64,000 nucleotides of DNA. Source: Sinomicrobium pectinilyticum (GTDB lineage: Bacteria > Bacteroidota > Bacteroidia > Flavobacteriales > Flavobacteriaceae). The DNA is taken from positions 62,001-126,000 of the forward strand of contig NZ_RJTM01000029.1 of the NCBI RefSeq assembly GCF_003725735.1. Reading direction: 5' to 3'. Positions within the stretch are counted from its first letter, which is position 1, and each line of letters starts with the position of its first letter. Under the pieces are notes generated by a model, which ran no database searches, had not been told where the DNA came from, and worked only from the letters and a program-made list of their open reading frames with translations. A program made the translations under genes and the position numbers. Shown in pieces: positions 4,489 through 13,882 of the stretch.

Positions 4489-6567
4489 ATGCTTTTTACT
4501 TCTGTATATACCAGTTTCCGATCATGCGGTAACACTCTTTTTTTGCTGCTTCTCATTGCCGGAAGCTGCCTGGGAACGATAAGCCCGGTACAAGCACATA
4601 TTGTAGAAGATTCGCTGAAGCTGGTGCTGTCGCGAAAGGACCTTTCTGTTCCGGAAAGAGTGGAAGCTATGAACAAGCTTGCGGAAATAACATTCTATCG
4701 CAGGGGGCACAAAGAAGGCTTTTCGGTATTGCATAAGGCAATTAAACTTTCCGGGCAACTGGAAGACAAAAAGCATAAAGCGAGGTTATATGCTGTCCTG
4801 GCCAGGTGGTATGTAGAAGACAACCAGTTCCTGCAGGCGAATGAAAACCTGGACAGTGCTTTGTATTACAGCGATAAGACCGGTGATAATGAAGCCCGGG
4901 GGTATGTAGAGTATACTAGGGGATGGCTCCGGCTCCGGCAGAATAAACCCAGGGAAGCCATCGCCGGTTTCCTGGAGGGATTGCACCTGGTGGAGCGGGA
5001 AGAAGCACATGGATTAAAAAGTGCGATATACGGTGAAATGTCTGATGCATACGGACAGTGGAGTGATACTCTCAATCAACAGAAATATGCTGTTTTGTGC
5101 TATAAAGAGGCATTGAGAACCGGAGACCCCGATATGCAGACCTATGCAGACCTGTCCGTAGGCAACAGTTTTGCCGACAGGTTTGAAAAAGATACGACCC
5201 GGCAGGTATTTCGCGACTCGGCCTTCTATTATTACAAACATTCTGTTTCCTTTCTGGAAAAAAACAGGGATCGTGTGGTCCATCTTACCCGCCTGCCCGT
5301 AGCGGCATATAACATAGCAAAACTCTATTCCCGGTATATGCCGTCCTCTTACGAAGAGAAGGTTCGTTATTACCTGGACCTTGCCGTGAAGGAAGCACAA
5401 AAAACAAACGAATATTCCGTTCTGGCGCAGAGTTATATTATGCTGACGGAATATGCCATTATGGAAGAAGATTATATCAGGGCGGAATTTTTTATCGGTA
5501 ATGCCGCCATTGCTGCACATGAAGAACCGGTGGTCAACAAAAGGATACTTCCGGGCATATCCTGGTATTTTTCGGTTATCCGGGAAAAACAGGGAGATCT
5601 CGGGGAAGCATTACGATATTACAAGCAGTATATCCGTGAGTACACCAACCGTTTTGACATGGAAAGAATGGCACTGGCCCAGAAACTGGAAGCACAATAT
5701 GAAGCGAACCGGAAGGAAAGGGAACTGGCCGTCTTACAGGAAAAAATAACCTACAGTAAAAAGCTGAACCGCCTGTACATAGGTCTTGCCCTGGTGGGGT
5801 TTATTGCCGTTATTATCCTGATCTATGCCAACAAACAAAGGACCAAAGCTATGAAGCAGCAAAAGCAGCTTCATAAAATGGAAGTGGGGAAAATAGAACA
5901 GAAAAACCGCATATCTCTTTTATCGGCCATGCTCGAAGGGCAGGAACAGGAGCGGAGCCGCCTGGCAAGAGACCTGCACGACGGGCTTGGCGGACTGCTT
6001 TCGGGTATTAAAATTGAAATGTCGGCAGTAAAAACCATACTCGCCAATCCGGAAGGGCAGGGGCTTATGGATAAGACCATGGAACACCTGGACGATGCCG
6101 TAAACGAACTGCGGCGCATAGCCCACAGCATGATGCCGGAAATACTGATCCGGTACGGGCTGGGAGAAGCAGTGAAAGAGTACTGCCAAAGGTTCCGGAC
6201 TTCCGGAGTTCGAATAGAATGCAGAGTGTTTAATTATACTAATGAGATGGACCATTCCCGGCAAATGGTGTTGTACCGTATTATGCAGGAGTTGGTGAAC
6301 AATGCTATAAAACATGCGGAAGCGTCCCTTATTTATGTACAACTACAACAGGTTGAGGATAAGATATTCCTCACGGTAGAGGATGACGGTATAGGTTTTG
6401 ACAAAGATAAGATAGCCGCTACCGGTAAACAAAGTGCCGGGTGGACCAATATCCGTGCCAGGGTGGAGTTTCTTCATGGCTCTTTGGACATCCTCTCCGA
6501 AAAGGGTTCGGGGACTACGATAACCGTTGAATGCCTTATGAATGCGGATGGACGGGAAAAAAAATAA
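4489..6567 (+). CDS. TPR-containing sensor histidine kinase (HisKA_3 type)
   Basis: 692 residues. An N-terminal hydrophobic signal (ending near VQAH, residue about 37) leads into a long helical repeat region of TPR type (about 40-420, with several paired-helix units such as ARGYVEYTRGWLRLRQNKPR). A membrane segment lies near 428-450 (LYIGLALVGFIAVIILIYA), then a coiled coil. The dimerisation/phosphoacceptor motif is RLARDLHDGLGG with H497 as the phosphorylated residue, followed by a HATPase_c domain (N-box MQELVNNAIKHA, G1 box VEDDGIGFD). This is the NarX/LiaS class that partners NarL-type regulators; no regulator gene is adjacent, the nearest being at 13095-13718. Confidence 0.92.
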   Translation: MLFTSVYTSFRSCGNTLFLLLLIAGSCLGTISPVQAHIVEDSLKLVLSRKDLSVPERVEAMNKLAEITFYRRGHKEGFSVLHKAIKLSGQLEDKKHKARLYAVLARWYVEDNQFLQANENLDSALYYSDKTGDNEARGYVEYTRGWLRLRQNKPREAIAGFLEGLHLVEREEAHGLKSAIYGEMSDAYGQWSDTLNQQKYAVLCYKEALRTGDPDMQTYADLSVGNSFADRFEKDTTRQVFRDSAFYYYKHSVSFLEKNRDRVVHLTRLPVAAYNIAKLYSRYMPSSYEEKVRYYLDLAVKEAQKTNEYSVLAQSYIMLTEYAIMEEDYIRAEFFIGNAAIAAHEEPVVNKRILPGISWYFSVIREKQGDLGEALRYYKQYIREYTNRFDMERMALAQKLEAQYEANRKERELAVLQEKITYSKKLNRLYIGLALVGFIAVIILIYANKQRTKAMKQQKQLHKMEVGKIEQKNRISLLSAMLEGQEQERSRLARDLHDGLGGLLSGIKIEMSAVKTILANPEGQGLMDKTMEHLDDAVNELRRIAHSMMPEILIRYGLGEAVKEYCQRFRTSGVRIECRVFNYTNEMDHSRQMVLYRIMQELVNNAIKHAEASLIYVQLQQVEDKIFLTVEDDGIGFDKDKIAATGKQSAGWTNIRARVEFLHGSLDILSEKGSGTTITVECLMNADGREKK

Positions 6568-6578
6568 AACATTCCCGC

Positions 6579-7307
6579 TTATTCCGGGTCTTTTGCAGGG
6601 ACAGGTTCTTTCTTTCGGGTACCGAACAGACGGTCCCAGATGTTGGTGTAGAACCCGAAATTGCAACGGATGTCCAGGTGATGTCCGTGATGGAAGGAAG
6701 AAGTACCGATATATTTTACCAATGGCCATTTCCTTATCCTTTCCGGCAGGGGCTCTGTTCCCAGGTGTCCCGCCAGCCCGAAGATCACGTTAACCGTAAG
6801 GTATAGTACCACAGCATAAAAGGTTGCCGGGTACACCATAAGTAAAGATAACCACATGAGCCCGAAACCGATGGTTTCCAGGGGGTGCAGTACAAAGAGA
6901 TCGAGCGGTACCGGGTTTTCCGATTCGTGGTGCAGTCCGTGTATGGCCCGGTACAGGAAAGTACGATGGATAAACAGGTGAAAGATATACATCAGGAAAT
7001 CCATCCCCAGGAAAAGCACCAGGAAATCTAAGATAATGTGAGCTGTGTGGCCGGAAGTAATGACGATCCACCCGTTTTGCCATAACAGGTACCCTACATA
7101 GGTTATGGCCGTATTGATGGTTACGGTGACCAGCGATATTCCTGTTTTTTTTAAGGATTCCCGGGTTGCCCGGAATACCTGTTTTTTCCCGGAAAGCCGC
7201 AGTAATACCCATCCCGAAGCCAGTGTACCGGTGTATATGGCGATATTGATCAGCAACAGGACCCACCATACATGAACGGCAGAGGATTGTTCCAGGTAGG
7301 TAAGCAT
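6579..7307 (-). CDS. fatty acid hydroxylase / sterol desaturase family membrane enzyme
   Basis: 242 residues, integral membrane, with the histidine clusters of the diiron hydroxylase superfamily: HLFIHRTFLYRAIHGLHHES and, near the C-terminus, FHHGHHLDIRCNFGFY. Four or more hydrophobic segments precede and separate them. Family members hydroxylate or desaturate long-chain lipids at a non-haem diiron centre. It is the last gene of a four-gene operon; only one base separates its ATG from the stop of the gene before it (TGA-A-ATG). It is paralogous to the first gene of the operon, so two oxidative steps or two substrates are likely. Confidence 0.88.
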   Translation of the reverse strand: MLTYLEQSSAVHVWWVLLLINIAIYTGTLASGWVLLRLSGKKQVFRATRESLKKTGISLVTVTINTAITYVGYLLWQNGWIVITSGHTAHIILDFLVLFLGMDFLMYIFHLFIHRTFLYRAIHGLHHESENPVPLDLFVLHPLETIGFGLMWLSLLMVYPATFYAVVLYLTVNVIFGLAGHLGTEPLPERIRKWPLVKYIGTSSFHHGHHLDIRCNFGFYTNIWDRLFGTRKKEPVPAKDPE

Positions 7308-7308
7308 T

Positions 7309-8205
7309 TCAGGAAATCGGGTTTTGTGCCTGTTGTTTTAATTTGGCCTCTACGAGCAGGGCATGTAATACTTCGGTAGAAAAACCGTGTAATAACAACC
7401 GGAAAGCCGCCCCTGCGGTCGGTAGTGGTATCATGGGGTGTTTATTGTTCAGGGCTACCAGTTTCTCCGGGCAATCCATGATGGTAGCGGCATATAAACC
7501 TATGACTTCATCCAGTTGCAGGGAATTGGTGGCACGCCAGAAATCATTGTCCGTAAGGAAAAACTGGTAGACGGGAGTGAAAATCTCAATAGCCGTACCC
7601 AGGTCGAGAAAATTGGTCCACCCGTTCCGGAAATTTTCAAACGGGATCGGTCCTGTGGAAATCGCGCTGAAATCCGGGTTTTCTTTCTTTTTTACCGTTT
7701 GTCCTTTTTCTTTAAGGGCCTTGTTCAGGTTGATAATAAAATTATAGAGATTGAGGTCGTGTTCCAGGAAAAGATTGTCCTTCACCTCTTTTACCGAAAC
7801 GGGTTTCAGCGGGTTCATGGGAATTTCTCCGGCCCCGTCCACATTGTCTTTTATAAAGCGGAGCACTTCCGACCCCAGGTAAAAATGCCGGAGAATAAGG
7901 AAATTGGCTTCCGGGGTAATAAAGTATTTCATGCCCATATACAGGCTCCAGTGTAATGCCCCGGGGGCATTGACCAGATTCGGAATAAATATTTTCAGAA
8001 CCTGCATAACATGAATGGAAAGACGTGCCAGCACCCGAACAACCGGGTTCAGGAACTGGCGGGTTTTACTGTTGGCATCGTATAAAAAAGCTGCTTTGGC
8101 ATCTTTGTTAAATGGTATGCTGTGGTCCAGGTACAGGGCATGCCAGTGACTGGGGTCCCGCGGGTTGTTTTCCAGGGACTCGAAATATTCGGAATAATTT
8201 TTCAT
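7309..8205 (-). CDS. unrecognised 298-residue protein of the ketosynthase operon
   Basis: I do not recognise the family with confidence. The protein is helical, with no signal peptide. Conspicuous features are amphipathic or membrane-touching helices around residues 50-110 (RVLARLSIHVMQVLKIFI, then YMGMKYFITPEANFLILRHF), a histidine/acid-rich motif LFLEHDLNLYNFIINLN near residue 150, and a conserved-looking C-terminal FRLLLHGFSTEVLHALL. Histidines spaced along helices could bind metal, but this is speculative. Tight packing (12 bp after the ketosynthase, 1 bp before the hydroxylase) implies a function in the same lipid-type pathway. Confidence 0.8.
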   Translation of the reverse strand: MKNYSEYFESLENNPRDPSHWHALYLDHSIPFNKDAKAAFLYDANSKTRQFLNPVVRVLARLSIHVMQVLKIFIPNLVNAPGALHWSLYMGMKYFITPEANFLILRHFYLGSEVLRFIKDNVDGAGEIPMNPLKPVSVKEVKDNLFLEHDLNLYNFIINLNKALKEKGQTVKKKENPDFSAISTGPIPFENFRNGWTNFLDLGTAIEIFTPVYQFFLTDNDFWRATNSLQLDEVIGLYAATIMDCPEKLVALNNKHPMIPLPTAGAAFRLLLHGFSTEVLHALLVEAKLKQQAQNPIS

Positions 8206-8217
8206 GTTAATCGCTTT

Positions 8218-10089
8218 TTAAAAATTATCTATTTCTTCCAGCTGCATTTTGTAAAGCCTGGCCACTACTTTGGCGGTCTTGACGATTTTCTCGGCAACTT
8301 CCCGGGTTAACAGATCGCTTTGAATAGCCTTTTCAAAACGCTCAAAATGATTTTCGTTACTGTCACTGCTTTCGTGATAGATAAGGAACGATACCTGGTC
8401 ATCATCCAGTTCCAGTTGTTGTTTTATGGCGCGACCCCATTTCCCGGCTACGCGGTTTCCCAGTCCTTCTATGATGAACATGCCGCCCAGCAAATCGAAG
8501 GGATCGGGCTGACTGGCCCGGTGGAACATAAAAGCGCTCAGGGCTTCGCTACCGATGTTTTTATTCCCGGTGAGAATATCTTCTTCTTTGCCCCCGCACC
8601 GAAGGTAGTTCTTTTCCAGTAACTGGTAATCCCTGTGTTCGTCCGAAGAATGGCGGATAAAGGACGAGCGTACGGGAAAATGTTCCATACTTATATTGGA
8701 TGCCGCCCGGGCGATCCATTGCGAACCGTCGATAACCTGCTGCCGCAGGTTTACCAGTAAACGCTTGTATTCGTCCAGGGTAAGCGTTCCGTTATAGATC
8801 TTTTGCACCATGGGCACTTCCTGTAAAGAACGTTCGAAATCGAACCAGGTATTGGTAAGCTGCCGTACCAGCCACTCCTGTACCGGCTTTCCGTCCGTGT
8901 GAATTTCCGGGGCTTGTATTTCCCTGTTCAGTTCGTCCGAAGGTATTTGTTTTTTCCCGGATACGACTTTGAGCCACATAAAGCCGGTTATAAAACGGCC
9001 GCTTTCCGGTACCATGCACAGGATGTTCTGGCCTTCCCGGAGCCTGCCGCTGTCCATCAGTTCTTTTATGGTCACAAAAATAGAGGCCGATCCCATATTG
9101 CCTTTGTCATAAAGGGTAGTGTACCACTTTTCATCGGCGATTTCCAATCCTCCCCTGTGCAGCAAATCGACGATCTGGGGTTTGAAGTGATGGGACGAAT
9201 AATGGCACAGCAGCCAGTCGATGTTTTTCGGGTCTATCTTTTGAAGGTCGATAAGTTCGAAAAACCGGTTTACCCCGAGTTTTACAATATTTTCCACCAG
9301 TCCCATATCCTGGCGCAGGTTTATCATGCCCTCACGGTCGGCATCGGATACGGAATCGTAATCCAGCCAGGTTGCGGATACGGAACCATCCCTGTTTTTC
9401 TGTGTACCCGTATACATACAAACATCATAGGCATTGGCATGCGACTGTAAATCCACCCATTTCACTTCCAGAGAAAGTCCGTTTACCGCAGGTTTGTCCT
9501 GTAATAACAAAGCCCCTGCACCATCGCTCAGCATCCATCGCAGGAACTCGGTTTCCAGGGGGATTTCTTCCTGTTGAAGTATGGAGGCCTGGTATTTGAA
9601 CCGGTTGGATTTGAACATCCTGCTCGACAGTTCTGCGGCACAGCATACGGCATTTTTCATTTCGCCTGACTGTACATGCATATATGCGTTTTTTATGGCC
9701 ATGAGCCCGGAAGCGCATACGCTCTGATGGGACGCAATACCACAGCGGTCCAGTCCGCTCTCCCCGTGTACCATACTTGCAAATCCCGGGACCGGGAGGT
9801 CGCTTTGTGTAGTACCGGCACTGAGGAAATCGATATCCGATTTCGGTACCTCTGAACCGGAAAGACAATTTTCAATGGCCAGTGCCGCCATTTCGTAGGC
9901 TTTATGCGTGGTTTTCTGGGATTTATCCATAGCATAGAAGCGGGTTTTGATACCGTTTTTACGAAGGAAAACGGCCTTTTTTCGCGAAGGTGTCCCGTTA
10001 ATATTTCCGAGAAAGTCTTCCATCTCCTCGTTCGTTACCGCAGTATTGGGCAAAAAAGCCCCGGCGGAAGTAATATATACTTTCTTCAT
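8218..10089 (-). CDS. ketosynthase III fused to a haem-oxygenase-like domain (DarB/StlD-like)
   Basis: 623 residues in two parts. Residues 1 to about 375 are a thiolase-fold ketoacyl-ACP synthase III: catalytic C125 in HQSVCASG, H296 in LLCHYSSH and N331 in DKGNMGSAS, so the Cys-His-Asn triad is complete. Residues about 405-623 are all-helical and resemble iron-containing haem-oxygenase-like proteins, with candidate ligands H485, E540, H572, D576 and H581 (HESSDSNENH). The double length and context recall the DarB/StlD ketosynthases that condense two acyl units to cyclohexanediones or resorcinols; that assignment is from memory of the family. The start overlaps the upstream stop by 4 bp (ATGA). 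No acyl carrier or DarA-type aromatase gene is nearby. Confidence 0.85.
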   Translation of the reverse strand: MKKVYITSAGAFLPNTAVTNEEMEDFLGNINGTPSRKKAVFLRKNGIKTRFYAMDKSQKTTHKAYEMAALAIENCLSGSEVPKSDIDFLSAGTTQSDLPVPGFASMVHGESGLDRCGIASHQSVCASGLMAIKNAYMHVQSGEMKNAVCCAAELSSRMFKSNRFKYQASILQQEEIPLETEFLRWMLSDGAGALLLQDKPAVNGLSLEVKWVDLQSHANAYDVCMYTGTQKNRDGSVSATWLDYDSVSDADREGMINLRQDMGLVENIVKLGVNRFFELIDLQKIDPKNIDWLLCHYSSHHFKPQIVDLLHRGGLEIADEKWYTTLYDKGNMGSASIFVTIKELMDSGRLREGQNILCMVPESGRFITGFMWLKVVSGKKQIPSDELNREIQAPEIHTDGKPVQEWLVRQLTNTWFDFERSLQEVPMVQKIYNGTLTLDEYKRLLVNLRQQVIDGSQWIARAASNISMEHFPVRSSFIRHSSDEHRDYQLLEKNYLRCGGKEEDILTGNKNIGSEALSAFMFHRASQPDPFDLLGGMFIIEGLGNRVAGKWGRAIKQQLELDDDQVSFLIYHESSDSNENHFERFEKAIQSDLLTREVAEKIVKTAKVVARLYKMQLEEIDNF

Positions 10090-10802
10090 TTTTCTTTTGT
10101 TTTATATGTAGTGTGGAATAACCGGTCGAACCAGGGGAGCATAAACCCGAAGTTTCCCCTGCCTGTTTTGTGGTGCATACTGTGGCGATAAGAAAATTTG
10201 AGCAGGTGGTTGTTACCGGTACCCCGATAGAACTCGTAATTACTATGCCCCAGCATATTGATGAGTATACTCATTACGGGCAGAGAAAGGGCAGATACCA
10301 CCTGGAACGGATGTACCATAAGCGGGGGAATAATGACCGTACCCAGCAGAAAGGCTTCGAACCAGTGAAAACTATACGTTGAAAATACCGTAGGTTCTTT
10401 AGATCGGTGATGTTCGGCGTGAACGTGGCGCATAAACCATTTCCGGTGCATCAGGGCATGGCAGAGGTAAAAATGTATTTCGTTCCAGAAGAATAAAACG
10501 GGGATTTCTATGAGGCATATCCAACCGGACGAATAGGAGAGGTGCAACCAGCCGTGCTGTATTCCCTGTTGAAAAACAATACCCTGCAGGCTGAAGACCG
10601 TAATAGAGCTCATCGATTTCGAGATTTCCCGTTTTACCTGTCCCAGGCGCAGGTTATGGTTGTCAACCGCCCCTATTATGGCTTTCCTGTGGAAAAACTT
10701 CAAAAGCAACTGTCCTCCAAGGGCGCTTCCCCAGTAAAGAAGATTAAAGAACAGGAACATGCTGATAACCGTATGGTACCATGTTTCAAAACTCCATATC
10801 AT
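10086..10802 (-). CDS. fatty acid hydroxylase / sterol desaturase family membrane enzyme
   Basis: 238 residues from the ATG at 10802, preferred over an upstream in-frame ATG (10883) because AGGA lies six bases before it and because the protein then begins level with its paralogue at 6579-7307. Histidine boxes of the diiron membrane hydroxylases are present: CHALMHRKWFMRHVHAEHH and YRHSMHHKTGRGNFGF. Four or so membrane segments. It is the first gene of the operon; its stop overlaps the ketosynthase start by ATGA. Substrate unknown; a long-chain acyl product of the ketosynthase is the natural guess. Confidence 0.87.
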   Translation of the reverse strand: MIWSFETWYHTVISMFLFFNLLYWGSALGGQLLLKFFHRKAIIGAVDNHNLRLGQVKREISKSMSSITVFSLQGIVFQQGIQHGWLHLSYSSGWICLIEIPVLFFWNEIHFYLCHALMHRKWFMRHVHAEHHRSKEPTVFSTYSFHWFEAFLLGTVIIPPLMVHPFQVVSALSLPVMSILINMLGHSNYEFYRGTGNNHLLKFSYRHSMHHKTGRGNFGFMLPWFDRLFHTTYKTKEK

Positions 10803-10852: not shown

Positions 10853-10983
10853 AATCCCAGAAAACAGGGATTTTCAGAAACATGTGCTGACATCGGTATG
10901 TAAATATATAAAAATAAGGTTCGTATATAGCGGAATATATGAGGATGCGCTTAATCTTCCGAAAATCCCTGTTTTCTGGGATT
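10853..10983. promoter_or_regulatory. two copies of a 23-bp operator-like palindrome in a divergent intergenic region
   Basis: A 23-bp sequence at 10853-10875 recurs as its exact reverse complement at 10961-10983. Each arm is itself a dyad, AATCCC-8 bp-GGGATT, so both copies could be bound by the same dimeric regulator. They lie between the divergent ketosynthase operon (start 10802) and the IgaA-like gene (start 11040), 108 bp apart start to start. Confidence 0.5.
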
Positions 10984-11039: not shown

Positions 11040-12311
11040 ATGGATATTTTGTATTACATATTGCTGTTCGGGGTGCTGATCTATTCCCTTTTCAATGCCA
11101 TCACCTATCTTTCCCGTCGTTCGAGAGACCGGTATTCATCGCGCGAAGCGGAAAAGGATATGGAACTTCACCGGAAACTCACCCCGGAAGAATGTGAACT
11201 TCTGGACCGTTTACAACAGCAGAAAGGCCCCCGGAGAAAGTTTTACAAACGTACCGGGGATGATGTTTATATTATAAAGGGGTTGTTTGACCGCCACGGA
11301 ATTACTGTGAGGTATGATACAGAATGGCATAATATGATAGGAGGACTCGAAGTGACCCTGGAGGATGAGGGGCTTAATTATGTACAGGAAATTAATATGG
11401 CAGAGGTGGTGAAAACAGAGAAAGTCCCGCTGGTACTTGCCTTAAACAATAAATACTCCCTGTTGCACAGTATTCATGCCAGAGAACAGATGGAGAAAGG
11501 AGAAACCGGGAAACTGCCCGGCGAACATGAAGAAGGTATGGAAGTAAGGCTTGTTTCCAATCGTAACCAAACACCTATGGAAATAGAAGCCCGGGAAAAA
11601 GCCGGTGCCGGTATGGGAGGAGCTGTATTACTTTCCGTGGCTTTTTTTGTACTGGGGCTTAGTGCTGTATTAGGACGATATGCACATTGGGGAGTTGTTT
11701 TGGGCGGGGCTCTTCTTTTGTATTGTCTCTGGAGGACCTGGAGGGCCCCGAAATGGTCTTCTCCTGCTCCTGTACGGGTTTTACACGGCGTTCCCACATT
11801 TCTTGCGCAGGTGAACAATACATCATCTCAGATAGAAGGTATGGTAGCCCGTATGGGAAGCCTGGAGCTGAAATATAACAGGGAATGGTTGCCTTTTATG
11901 CTGGCTTATAGTGAAAACCCGGTGAATGCCGAAGTGACAAAAGACGGCTGGCTGATGCGTTTCGGTCCGCATTTGTCTTTAGGAGAAGAGGAGAAAAGAT
12001 TTCCGTCCGGACAGTGGTTTCGCCATGTGGCTGCAGCCATAGTGGGAGCGGCTACTGTAGGCCTTACGCTGATTTTCAGTTCCGGGATATCCGCAAGTAT
12101 ACAAAAAAGCAAATGGTGGATACAGGGAGCTTCGGCCGATTCGTTTGCGCAGGCCTGGACATATATGGCTCCTTCTTTCCTGGTTATTGCGGGAGTGTTG
12201 CTGTTGTCCGTACATATACCCCTGGCCTTGAACGGATATATGAATGATAAAGGAAGAAAGCAAAAAATAAAGGAATACTATTCGGGGGTGATCCACCCGG
12301 ACATGCGCTGA
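11040..12311 (+). CDS. IgaA-family membrane protein lacking the large periplasmic domain
   Basis: 423 residues. Motifs match enterobacterial IgaA (YrfF) in order: RKLTPEE near residue 48, VPLVLALN near 131, then two membrane segments (about 195-232), a second cytoplasmic domain with LHGVPTFLAQVNN, SLELKYNREWLPFM and HLSLGEEEKRFPSGQWFR, a fourth membrane segment (about 335-352), a fifth (about 375-395) and the terminal KIKEYYSGVIHP. IgaA, about 710 residues, restrains the Rcs phosphorelay. Here the roughly 270-residue periplasmic domain that senses RcsF is replaced by about 25 residues, so only the cytoplasmic and membrane core remains. The comparison is from memory, but the number of ordered matches is high. 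Confidence 0.8.
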   Translation: MDILYYILLFGVLIYSLFNAITYLSRRSRDRYSSREAEKDMELHRKLTPEECELLDRLQQQKGPRRKFYKRTGDDVYIIKGLFDRHGITVRYDTEWHNMIGGLEVTLEDEGLNYVQEINMAEVVKTEKVPLVLALNNKYSLLHSIHAREQMEKGETGKLPGEHEEGMEVRLVSNRNQTPMEIEAREKAGAGMGGAVLLSVAFFVLGLSAVLGRYAHWGVVLGGALLLYCLWRTWRAPKWSSPAPVRVLHGVPTFLAQVNNTSSQIEGMVARMGSLELKYNREWLPFMLAYSENPVNAEVTKDGWLMRFGPHLSLGEEEKRFPSGQWFRHVAAAIVGAATVGLTLIFSSGISASIQKSKWWIQGASADSFAQAWTYMAPSFLVIAGVLLLSVHIPLALNGYMNDKGRKQKIKEYYSGVIHPDMR

Positions 12312-13094: not shown

Positions 13095-13718
13095 TCAGAG
13101 CAATTTAAATTCGGTAGCGTACTTAATAATGGCCGTCATGTTATTGACGTCAAATTTCTCCATCAGGTTCTTGCGGTGGGTTTCTACCGTATACGGACTG
13201 ATAAACAATTTTTCGGCAATTTGTGAGGAGGTGAATCCTTCGGTTACCAGTTGCAGTATCTCTTTTTCCCTACGGGTAATTTTCGGTATAAAATCCGGGC
13301 CGTTGTTGTCCTGATTCTCATAAATATCCCTTGTTTGTTTGCACATATATAACTCGCCGTCTATGACCTTGTGGATAGCCTGGATAATTTCATCACCGAT
13401 GGAATTCTTCAGGACGTACCCGTTGACCCCGTTTTGGAGCACACTGCTTATTACCGCTTTTTCATTATGTACGCTAAGCACAATAATTTTCAACTCCGGG
13501 TAAGCATCGCGTATCTGTTTGCTCAGTTCAATACCGCTGATATCGGGCAGGTTGATGTCCAGTAACAGCACGTCCGGTTCTTCCCCGGCAAGAGCATCTA
13601 TAGTGTCTTTGCCATTCTGGAAGACTCCTTTAAGGGCAATTTCATCTCTGGTGGCCAAAAGGTTTTTTATGCCTTCCTGGACAATGGGGTGGTCATCTGT
13701 GATATATACCTGTATCAT
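13095..13718 (-). CDS. NarL/FixJ-type response regulator
   Basis: 207 residues from ATG 13718, chosen because the receiver domain begins there (MIQVYITDDHP); an upstream ATG at 13760 would add 14 unusual residues. Receiver domain 1-120 with acidic pocket D8 and D9, phospho-acceptor D54 (LLLDINLP) and K104-region VLKNS. A LuxR/GerE-type helix-turn-helix is at the C-terminus (ITRREKEILQLVTEGFTSS, then FISPYTVETHRKNLMEKF). It is an orphan in position; the TPR kinase at 4489-6567 is of the class that pairs with such regulators. Confidence 0.93.
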   Translation of the reverse strand: MIQVYITDDHPIVQEGIKNLLATRDEIALKGVFQNGKDTIDALAGEEPDVLLLDINLPDISGIELSKQIRDAYPELKIIVLSVHNEKAVISSVLQNGVNGYVLKNSIGDEIIQAIHKVIDGELYMCKQTRDIYENQDNNGPDFIPKITRREKEILQLVTEGFTSSQIAEKLFISPYTVETHRKNLMEKFDVNNMTAIIKYATEFKLL

Positions 13719-13882
13719 TCCTGTTTTTTTAAAGCTTTTCCTATCACGGAGAATATACATCCGTTTACCCGTAATATGGGTACGAAGATACGGTGCAAAT
13801 CATTTTTCTTATATCCCGTATTTCCGGTATTTTTCAACATGGCTCCGACAAAGCACAAGGTACGGGAGAAACCGCAGATCGG

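Follow-up and report, generated by a model that had tools for sequence, protein, structure and literature searches.

Heterologous expression of darB and darA from Chitinophaga pinensis DSM 2588 is reported to yield a dialkylresorcinol (PMC3992019), and the two genes are labelled DAR-cyclase and DAR-aromatase in PMC3949708. A second described group, the haem-oxygenase-like (HO-like) dimetal oxidases, is the subject of a review (PMC13108848), which states that most of these enzymes use a set of three His and three carboxylates, that structures without metal show the third ligand helix to be flexible or disordered, and that the HO-like fold includes metal-independent members; the words "ketosynthase" and "fused" do not occur in the text of the review. 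Here, we describe an operon that joins a relative of DarB to an HO-like domain. It lies on the minus strand, at 6579-10802 of a window of 64,000 nucleotides from Sinomicrobium pectinilyticum (contig NZ_RJTM01000029.1, positions 62,001 to 126,000), and encodes a ketosynthase (KS) fused to an HO-like domain (KS-HO), a DUF6999 protein, and two membrane hydroxylases of family PF04116 (FAH1 and FAH2). In our best reading, KS-HO and DUF6999 belong to a widespread pathway that would condense two acyl chains and oxidize the product, on one polypeptide and then in the membrane. The genes and domains of the operon are as follows:

10086-10802, minus strand: FAH1, PF04116 membrane hydroxylase (the list of open reading frames places its start at an upstream ATG, 10883)
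8218-10089, minus strand: KS-HO, 623 aa, ketosynthase fused to an HO-like domain
8962-10089, minus strand: KS domain, residues 1-376, StlD/DarB-like, with the triad C125/H296/N331
8221-8907, minus strand: HO-like domain, residues 395-623 (stop codon at 8218-8220), candidate ligands H480, E484, E541, H572, D576, and H581
7309-8205, minus strand: DUF6999 protein, 298 aa, PF22523
6579-7307, minus strand: FAH2, 242 aa, second PF04116 hydroxylase

The KS-HO and DUF6999 gene pair

The genes follow each other on the minus strand in the order FAH1, KS-HO, DUF6999, FAH2, with a 4-bp ATGA overlap between FAH1 and KS-HO, 12 bp between KS-HO and DUF6999, and 1 bp between DUF6999 and FAH2, exactly as the original prediction of four overlapping or abutting genes had it. 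There is no acyl carrier protein (ACP) gene within the operon. Searched against the whole assembly (5.65 Mb, 235 contigs), the full KS-HO protein finds its own gene and two weak FabH-like matches. The third gene product, previously listed as an unknown protein, belongs to Pfam DUF6999 (PF22523) with 404 bits at a cut-off of 27.

A genome collection of 84,980 species, scanned with an HO profile (two short HO-domain patterns), contained 395 relatives, of which the best 80 were kept; all counts over 80 loci describe these closest relatives. By record label, the loci fall into eight phyla, with most in Bacteroidota and the others in Myxococcota, Planctomycetota, Verrucomicrobiota, Acidobacteriota, Chlorobiota, Neomarinimicrobiota (Fidelibacterota), and one in Rickettsiales, the latter record clustering with Planctomycetota in the KS tree described below. 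DUF6999 is found downstream of KS-HO on the same strand, its centre at most 2 kb from the HO centre, in 76 of the 80 loci, an order too regular to be attributed to chance. In three of the other four loci (L059, L067, L083), the contig ends less than 600 bp from KS-HO, and in L058 a thiolase gene comes next and the contig ends at 1.4 kb. What is conserved as a unit is KS-HO with DUF6999, and not the four genes together. Two loci carry interrupted genes, with the KS of L032 split over two frames and the DUF6999 of L055 in two pieces, reflecting either decay or assembly errors.

The hydroxylases are far less constant. Both contain His boxes and exceed the PF04116 cut-off of 31 bits (FAH1 83, FAH2 96). 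Upstream of KS-HO, 43 of the 80 loci have a PF04116 gene, which in 16 of them shows the identical 4-bp overlap; counted anywhere in the retrieved stretch, such a gene is present in 44. Among the 80 loci, a FAH2-type second hydroxylase in the same place occurs in Sinomicrobium oceani (L016) alone. The proposed linkage of the four genes across genomes therefore holds for the KS-HO and DUF6999 pair and in part for the upstream hydroxylase. Likewise, the description of two paralogous hydroxylases bracketing the KS is correct for family and position at this locus, but the two proteins are merely 24% identical and, among the 80 loci, bracket the KS only here and in S. oceani, which rules out bracketing as a general plan.

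A census of 296 genomes from the phylum group of the window gives the same association from the other direction. DUF6999 is present in five genomes, four with the full protein and one (G219) with a short fragment that spans a stop; the HO profile also matches in five, strongly in four and weakly in G204. The four genomes with strong HO matches are the same four that have full DUF6999. The KS search returned 27 KSs, distributed over 26 genomes. Four have frames of 617-675 codons and belong to the four HO/DUF6999 genomes; the other 23 have frames of 378-423 codons. Flanks of 1.5 kb were read on both sides of these 23 stand-alone DarB-type KSs and contained neither HO nor DUF6999. If kinship is ignored, the probability that four of the 26 KS genomes coincide by chance is 1 in 14,950.

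In the phylum of the Myxococcus genome G305, 12 of 117 genomes contain DUF6999. Six of these have a fused KS-HO (G305 itself via locus L066), while three encode KS and HO as separate neighbours; G339 has a KS without HO, with a P450 alongside and with DUF6999, and two (L136 and L142, the latter a partial match) have neither KS nor HO within the 12-13 kb that were read. At L139, a split KS/HO locus, DUF6999 is on the opposite strand. Elsewhere, DUF6999 occurs in one of 149 genomes around G308, namely G308 itself, and in one of 14 control genomes, Caulobacter vibrioides. Moreover, a Pseudoalteromonas plasmid encodes KS, HO, and DUF6999 as three consecutive separate genes; its HO protein has no Pfam PF14518 match and reaches an E-value of 4e-98 with the KS-HO domain profile, among whose 39 rows the sequence itself is included. 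On this plasmid and in the three genomes of the Myxococcota group, KS and HO are neighbouring but unfused genes, which indicates that the fusion joins partners of one pathway.

Domain identities and conserved residues

KS residues 3-376 match StlD, the closest solved relative, at an E-value of 2e-79, and Foldseek superimposes the KS-HO model on StlD (5gk2) with 39% identity and a target template modelling (TM) score of 0.94, in line with the kinship to DarB/StlD that had been proposed. All 50 listed of 1,495 Foldseek matches are of KS III type. The complete triad of the original prediction is present, and C125, H296, and N331 are invariant in all 46 rows of the alignment, so that the domain combines the KS III fold with the Cys-His-Asn triad of the StlD/DarB class. 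A comparison of 53 HO-linked with 26 DarB-type KSs reveals 44 positions, triad included, at which at least 96% of either group carry the same residue; only positions 102 and 103 are fixed differently. In a maximum-likelihood tree of 84 KS rows, a single branch (support 100/100) unites the 49 fused KSs, the 4 split ones, and 3 related KSs that lack HO, and the 26 DarB-type rows stand apart from it; the three without HO (L012, L102, L141) are flagged as long branches of unsure placement. The tree requires three changes of the fused label, and the fusion, or its loss, thus occurred more than once. The nearest named KS is that of S. oceani.

The HO-like domain alone scores just above the PF14518 cut-off of 28.9 (30.2 bits), and the full KS-HO protein just below it (27.6 bits). 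PF14518 matches 37 of 39 HO-domain members at an E-value of 0.01, and the profile of these 39 finds a single PDB sequence at E-values up to 10, the HO-like protein 3dde (5e-8). These matches place the domain in the HO-like sequence family, as originally proposed. In an alignment of 48 rows, which contains the sequence of L101 twice, H480, E484, E541, H572, D576, and H581 are present in every row; so are E419, D487, E492, and E619, and H485 is present in 47. From the ligand set first put forward (H485, E540, H572, D576, H581), the last three residues are therefore retained, residue 540 is an isoleucine with the glutamate at 541, and H485 falls one row short of invariance. By alignment, the domain thus carries an invariant candidate set of three His and three carboxylate residues, a composition known from HO-like dimetal oxidases, and is probably a non-haem dimetal oxidase. 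The KS-HO model has a mean predicted local distance difference test (pLDDT) score of 89.7 and a predicted TM score of 0.65. In it, the candidate ligands fall on three helical stretches: 468-497, 533-559, and a third that is divided into 567-575 and 580-589, D576 lying between these two parts. Residues 571-580 have a mean pLDDT of 61, the second lowest after residues 381-390 (58). On this placement by predicted helix, neither of the outcomes first named as refuting was obtained, be it a predicted structure that lacks a four-helix metal site or a lack of gene linkage in other genomes.

The DUF6999 model is all helical with a mean pLDDT of 90.5. Foldseek finds no PDB fold for it, the best E-value being 0.75 among the 50 listed of 129 matches at an E-value of 10, and a DUF6999 profile search of PDB sequences is empty; on these two results, we rejected the assignment to a known fold. 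D27, R106, H107, N121, H149, D150, and D201 are present in all 56 DUF6999 rows and D232, H273, and E278 in 55 of them, and these residues look catalytic or metal-binding. We take the pattern of H107, H149-D150, and D201 to resemble that of HD-domain oxygenases, none of which appears among the 50 listed Foldseek matches, and use it as a lead only.

The C. pinensis DarA-like protein, used as query, was found in one of 15 genomes searched, its own, and not in the genome of the window, which agrees with the earlier view that the usual DarA partner of the dialkylresorcinol (DarAB) pathway is missing. The query is the product of a flavodoxin-like gene next to the stand-alone C. pinensis KS, which we take for DarA by its position. 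A second KS match at an E-value of 1e-20 occurs in one of 14 KS-HO genomes, C. pinensis YS-16, and corresponds to its stand-alone KS; G182 also holds both KS-HO and a separate DarB-type KS.

The enzymes that accompany the pair vary from locus to locus and comprise PF04116 proteins, desaturases, P450s, and flavin monooxygenases. A PF04116 gene, a PF00487 desaturase, or a 195-aa membrane protein lies within 4.5 kb in 53 of the 80 loci (44, 11, and 5, respectively), and in L057 a P450 gene precedes KS-HO. Among the KSs with DUF6999 but without HO, a P450 is near in L141 and a flavin monooxygenase in L012. The small protein, His-rich, membrane-like, and 185-195 aa long, adjoins KS/HO genes in L076 (4645-5232), L139 (2958-3539), L101 (11436-11993), L086, and L090. 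The five copies are 42-76% identical to one another, those of L076 and L101 have no Pfam match, and they are perhaps another membrane oxidase. At 7706-11810 of L102, a Streptomyces plasmid, a related KS (43% identity) is accompanied by an ACP, an FAD monooxygenase, and a protein of 321 aa that matches no Pfam family; an HO domain is absent there.

A proposed pathway and its alternatives

We are confident that KS-HO and DUF6999 form a dedicated pathway to an oxidized acyl-derived compound. As the same set recurs in unrelated bacteria, this compound is probably lipid-like. A more detailed scheme, in which metal binding, ring formation, substitution for DarA, the reaction order, and every single activity are predicted from sequence and models, is put forward tentatively, and we find it slightly easier to doubt than to accept. 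According to this scheme, the KS would join two acyl thioesters drawn from fatty-acid metabolism, most likely giving a dialkyl-cyclohexanedione by the DarB-type reaction, as the positions shared with DarB suggest. The HO-like domain of the same polypeptide would oxidize this product. Dehydrogenation or hydroxylation of the ring is the most plausible reaction; as DarA is missing, it would stand in for that of this aromatase. DUF6999 would then perform or assist a subsequent step, completing the product or handing it on, and FAH1, here with FAH2, may hydroxylate the alkyl chains in the membrane, where at other loci the membrane enzymes would hydroxylate or desaturate the chains. Oxidation in general is further suggested by the P450 or flavin monooxygenase near the two KS genes without HO, L012 being included on weak matches. 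Concerning the oxidized, possibly aromatic lipid first proposed to arise without the usual partners, the absence of DarA is borne out, and the product may be aromatic and may be a lipid. In its most far-reaching form, the proposal would have KS and dimetal oxidase on one polypeptide make and oxidize a dialkyl ring and replace the flavin aromatase, DUF6999 act as a metalloenzyme of new fold, and an oxidized lipid be made across eight phyla; we regard this conjunction as doubtful.

Several observations weigh against the detailed scheme or parts of it. The KS stays below the NCBIfam cut-offs for StlD/DarB (NF005293, 409 of 450 bits) and DarB (NF053539, 384 of 550 bits), both of which the stand-alone KS of C. 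pinensis exceeds (593 and 620 bits, respectively). Further, Tyr/Phe488 occupies a His position of 3dde, and 16 of 46 rows, that of S. pectinilyticum included, carry an insertion of two residues in the D576-H581 interval; both points suggest a metal site that may be out of the ordinary. In 27 of the 80 loci, none of the three types of membrane enzyme is found within 4.5 kb, and chain hydroxylation would consequently not be general. Finally, L012 has a very long KS branch, and its open frame matches DUF6999 weakly (21.5 bits against a cut-off of 27).

The separate branch of the KS-HO KSs and their scores below the DarB cut-off would also fit a linear product, a beta-keto acid or ketone, whose chain the HO-like domain would cleave or desaturate in the manner of UndA, a decarboxylase of fatty acids; an alkene or an unsaturated ketone would result, with no ring formed. 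However, the 44 positions fixed alike with DarB-type KSs, triad included, and StlD as closest solved relative speak against a linear product, which we consider unlikely. If, on the other hand, the HO-like domain were structural, binding, or a cofactor-free catalyst, all oxidation would fall to the membrane enzymes. The metal-independent members of the fold (PMC13108848) and the alpha-1 residues that depart from the His of 3dde speak for such a domain; yet six His and carboxylate residues, among them the H-D-H set of the third ligand helix, are kept in 48 of 48 rows, and at 26 of the 80 loci no membrane enzyme of the three types is near KS-HO and DUF6999. A domain without oxidase function is thus quite improbable. 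The relationship of the KS to DarB could, in addition, point to a variant way of supplying flexirubin-type pigments with their dialkylresorcinol part. Against this stand DarA in only one of the 15 genomes searched, the separate DarB-type KS beside KS-HO in C. pinensis and G182, the separate KS branch with 100/100 support, and the occurrence in eight phyla, which leave such a role scarcely credible; membership of the operon in the flexirubin/DAR pathway was rejected on the absence of DarA and the separate branch.

Flanking features and comparison with known systems

Next to the operon, the window contains the following features:

10853-10983, strand unassigned: upstream leader with an inverted repeat, arms 10853-10879 and 10957-10983
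11040-12311, plus strand, divergent from the operon: protein with a PF07095 IgaA match (110 bits, cut-off 25)
4489-6567, plus strand: TPR-histidine kinase, ending just past FAH2
13095-13760, minus strand: LuxR-type response regulator

The leader repeat, just upstream of FAH1, has 27-nt arms that are 96% complementary and 77 nt apart, with an RNA folding z of −6.0. The genome holds no other copy with fewer than three mismatches and one with three. Near 5939 of the S. oceani locus (L016), one arm is intact and the second slightly altered, as judged by eye. The repeat is possibly a regulatory element. S. oceani also has a 692-aa frame at the position matching the TPR-histidine kinase. IgaA is known from enterobacteria.

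Among the open-access papers listed in our searches, we found no description of a KS-HO fusion, of DUF6999, or of a product. The component families are known, and their combination appears new as far as this literature goes, KS-HO uniting two enzyme families that are each described and were not met together. The pathway context gives DUF6999, a protein without known fold, a testable role. Moreover, KS-HO is present in named cultured strains (Pedobacter, Chitinophaga, Myxococcus) that are open to comparison of lipid extracts.

Compared with DarB/DarA of the flexirubin system in C. pinensis, the locus has a related KS with the same triad and the 44 common fixed positions; in contrast, the HO domain and DUF6999 stand here in place of the flavodoxin-like DarA, and the KS belongs to a separate branch. 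StlD of bacterial stilbene synthesis (PDB 5gk0, 5gk2) shares the identity and fold given above, whereas its chain has no HO domain and the KS described here remains below the NCBIfam StlD/DarB cut-off. FAH1 and FAH2 resemble the PF04116 lipid hydroxylases in exceeding the family cut-off; with the NCBIfam model of OlsE (cut-off 475 bits), however, FAH1 reaches 25 bits and is thus not OlsE, and FAH2 has no match. With the HO-like dimetal oxidases UndA, SznF, BesC, and AetD, the C-terminal domain has in common the PF14518 match and, as invariant candidate ligands, residues of the three-His/three-carboxylate set, but it is fused to a KS, and its alpha-1 residues and two-residue insertion look unusual.

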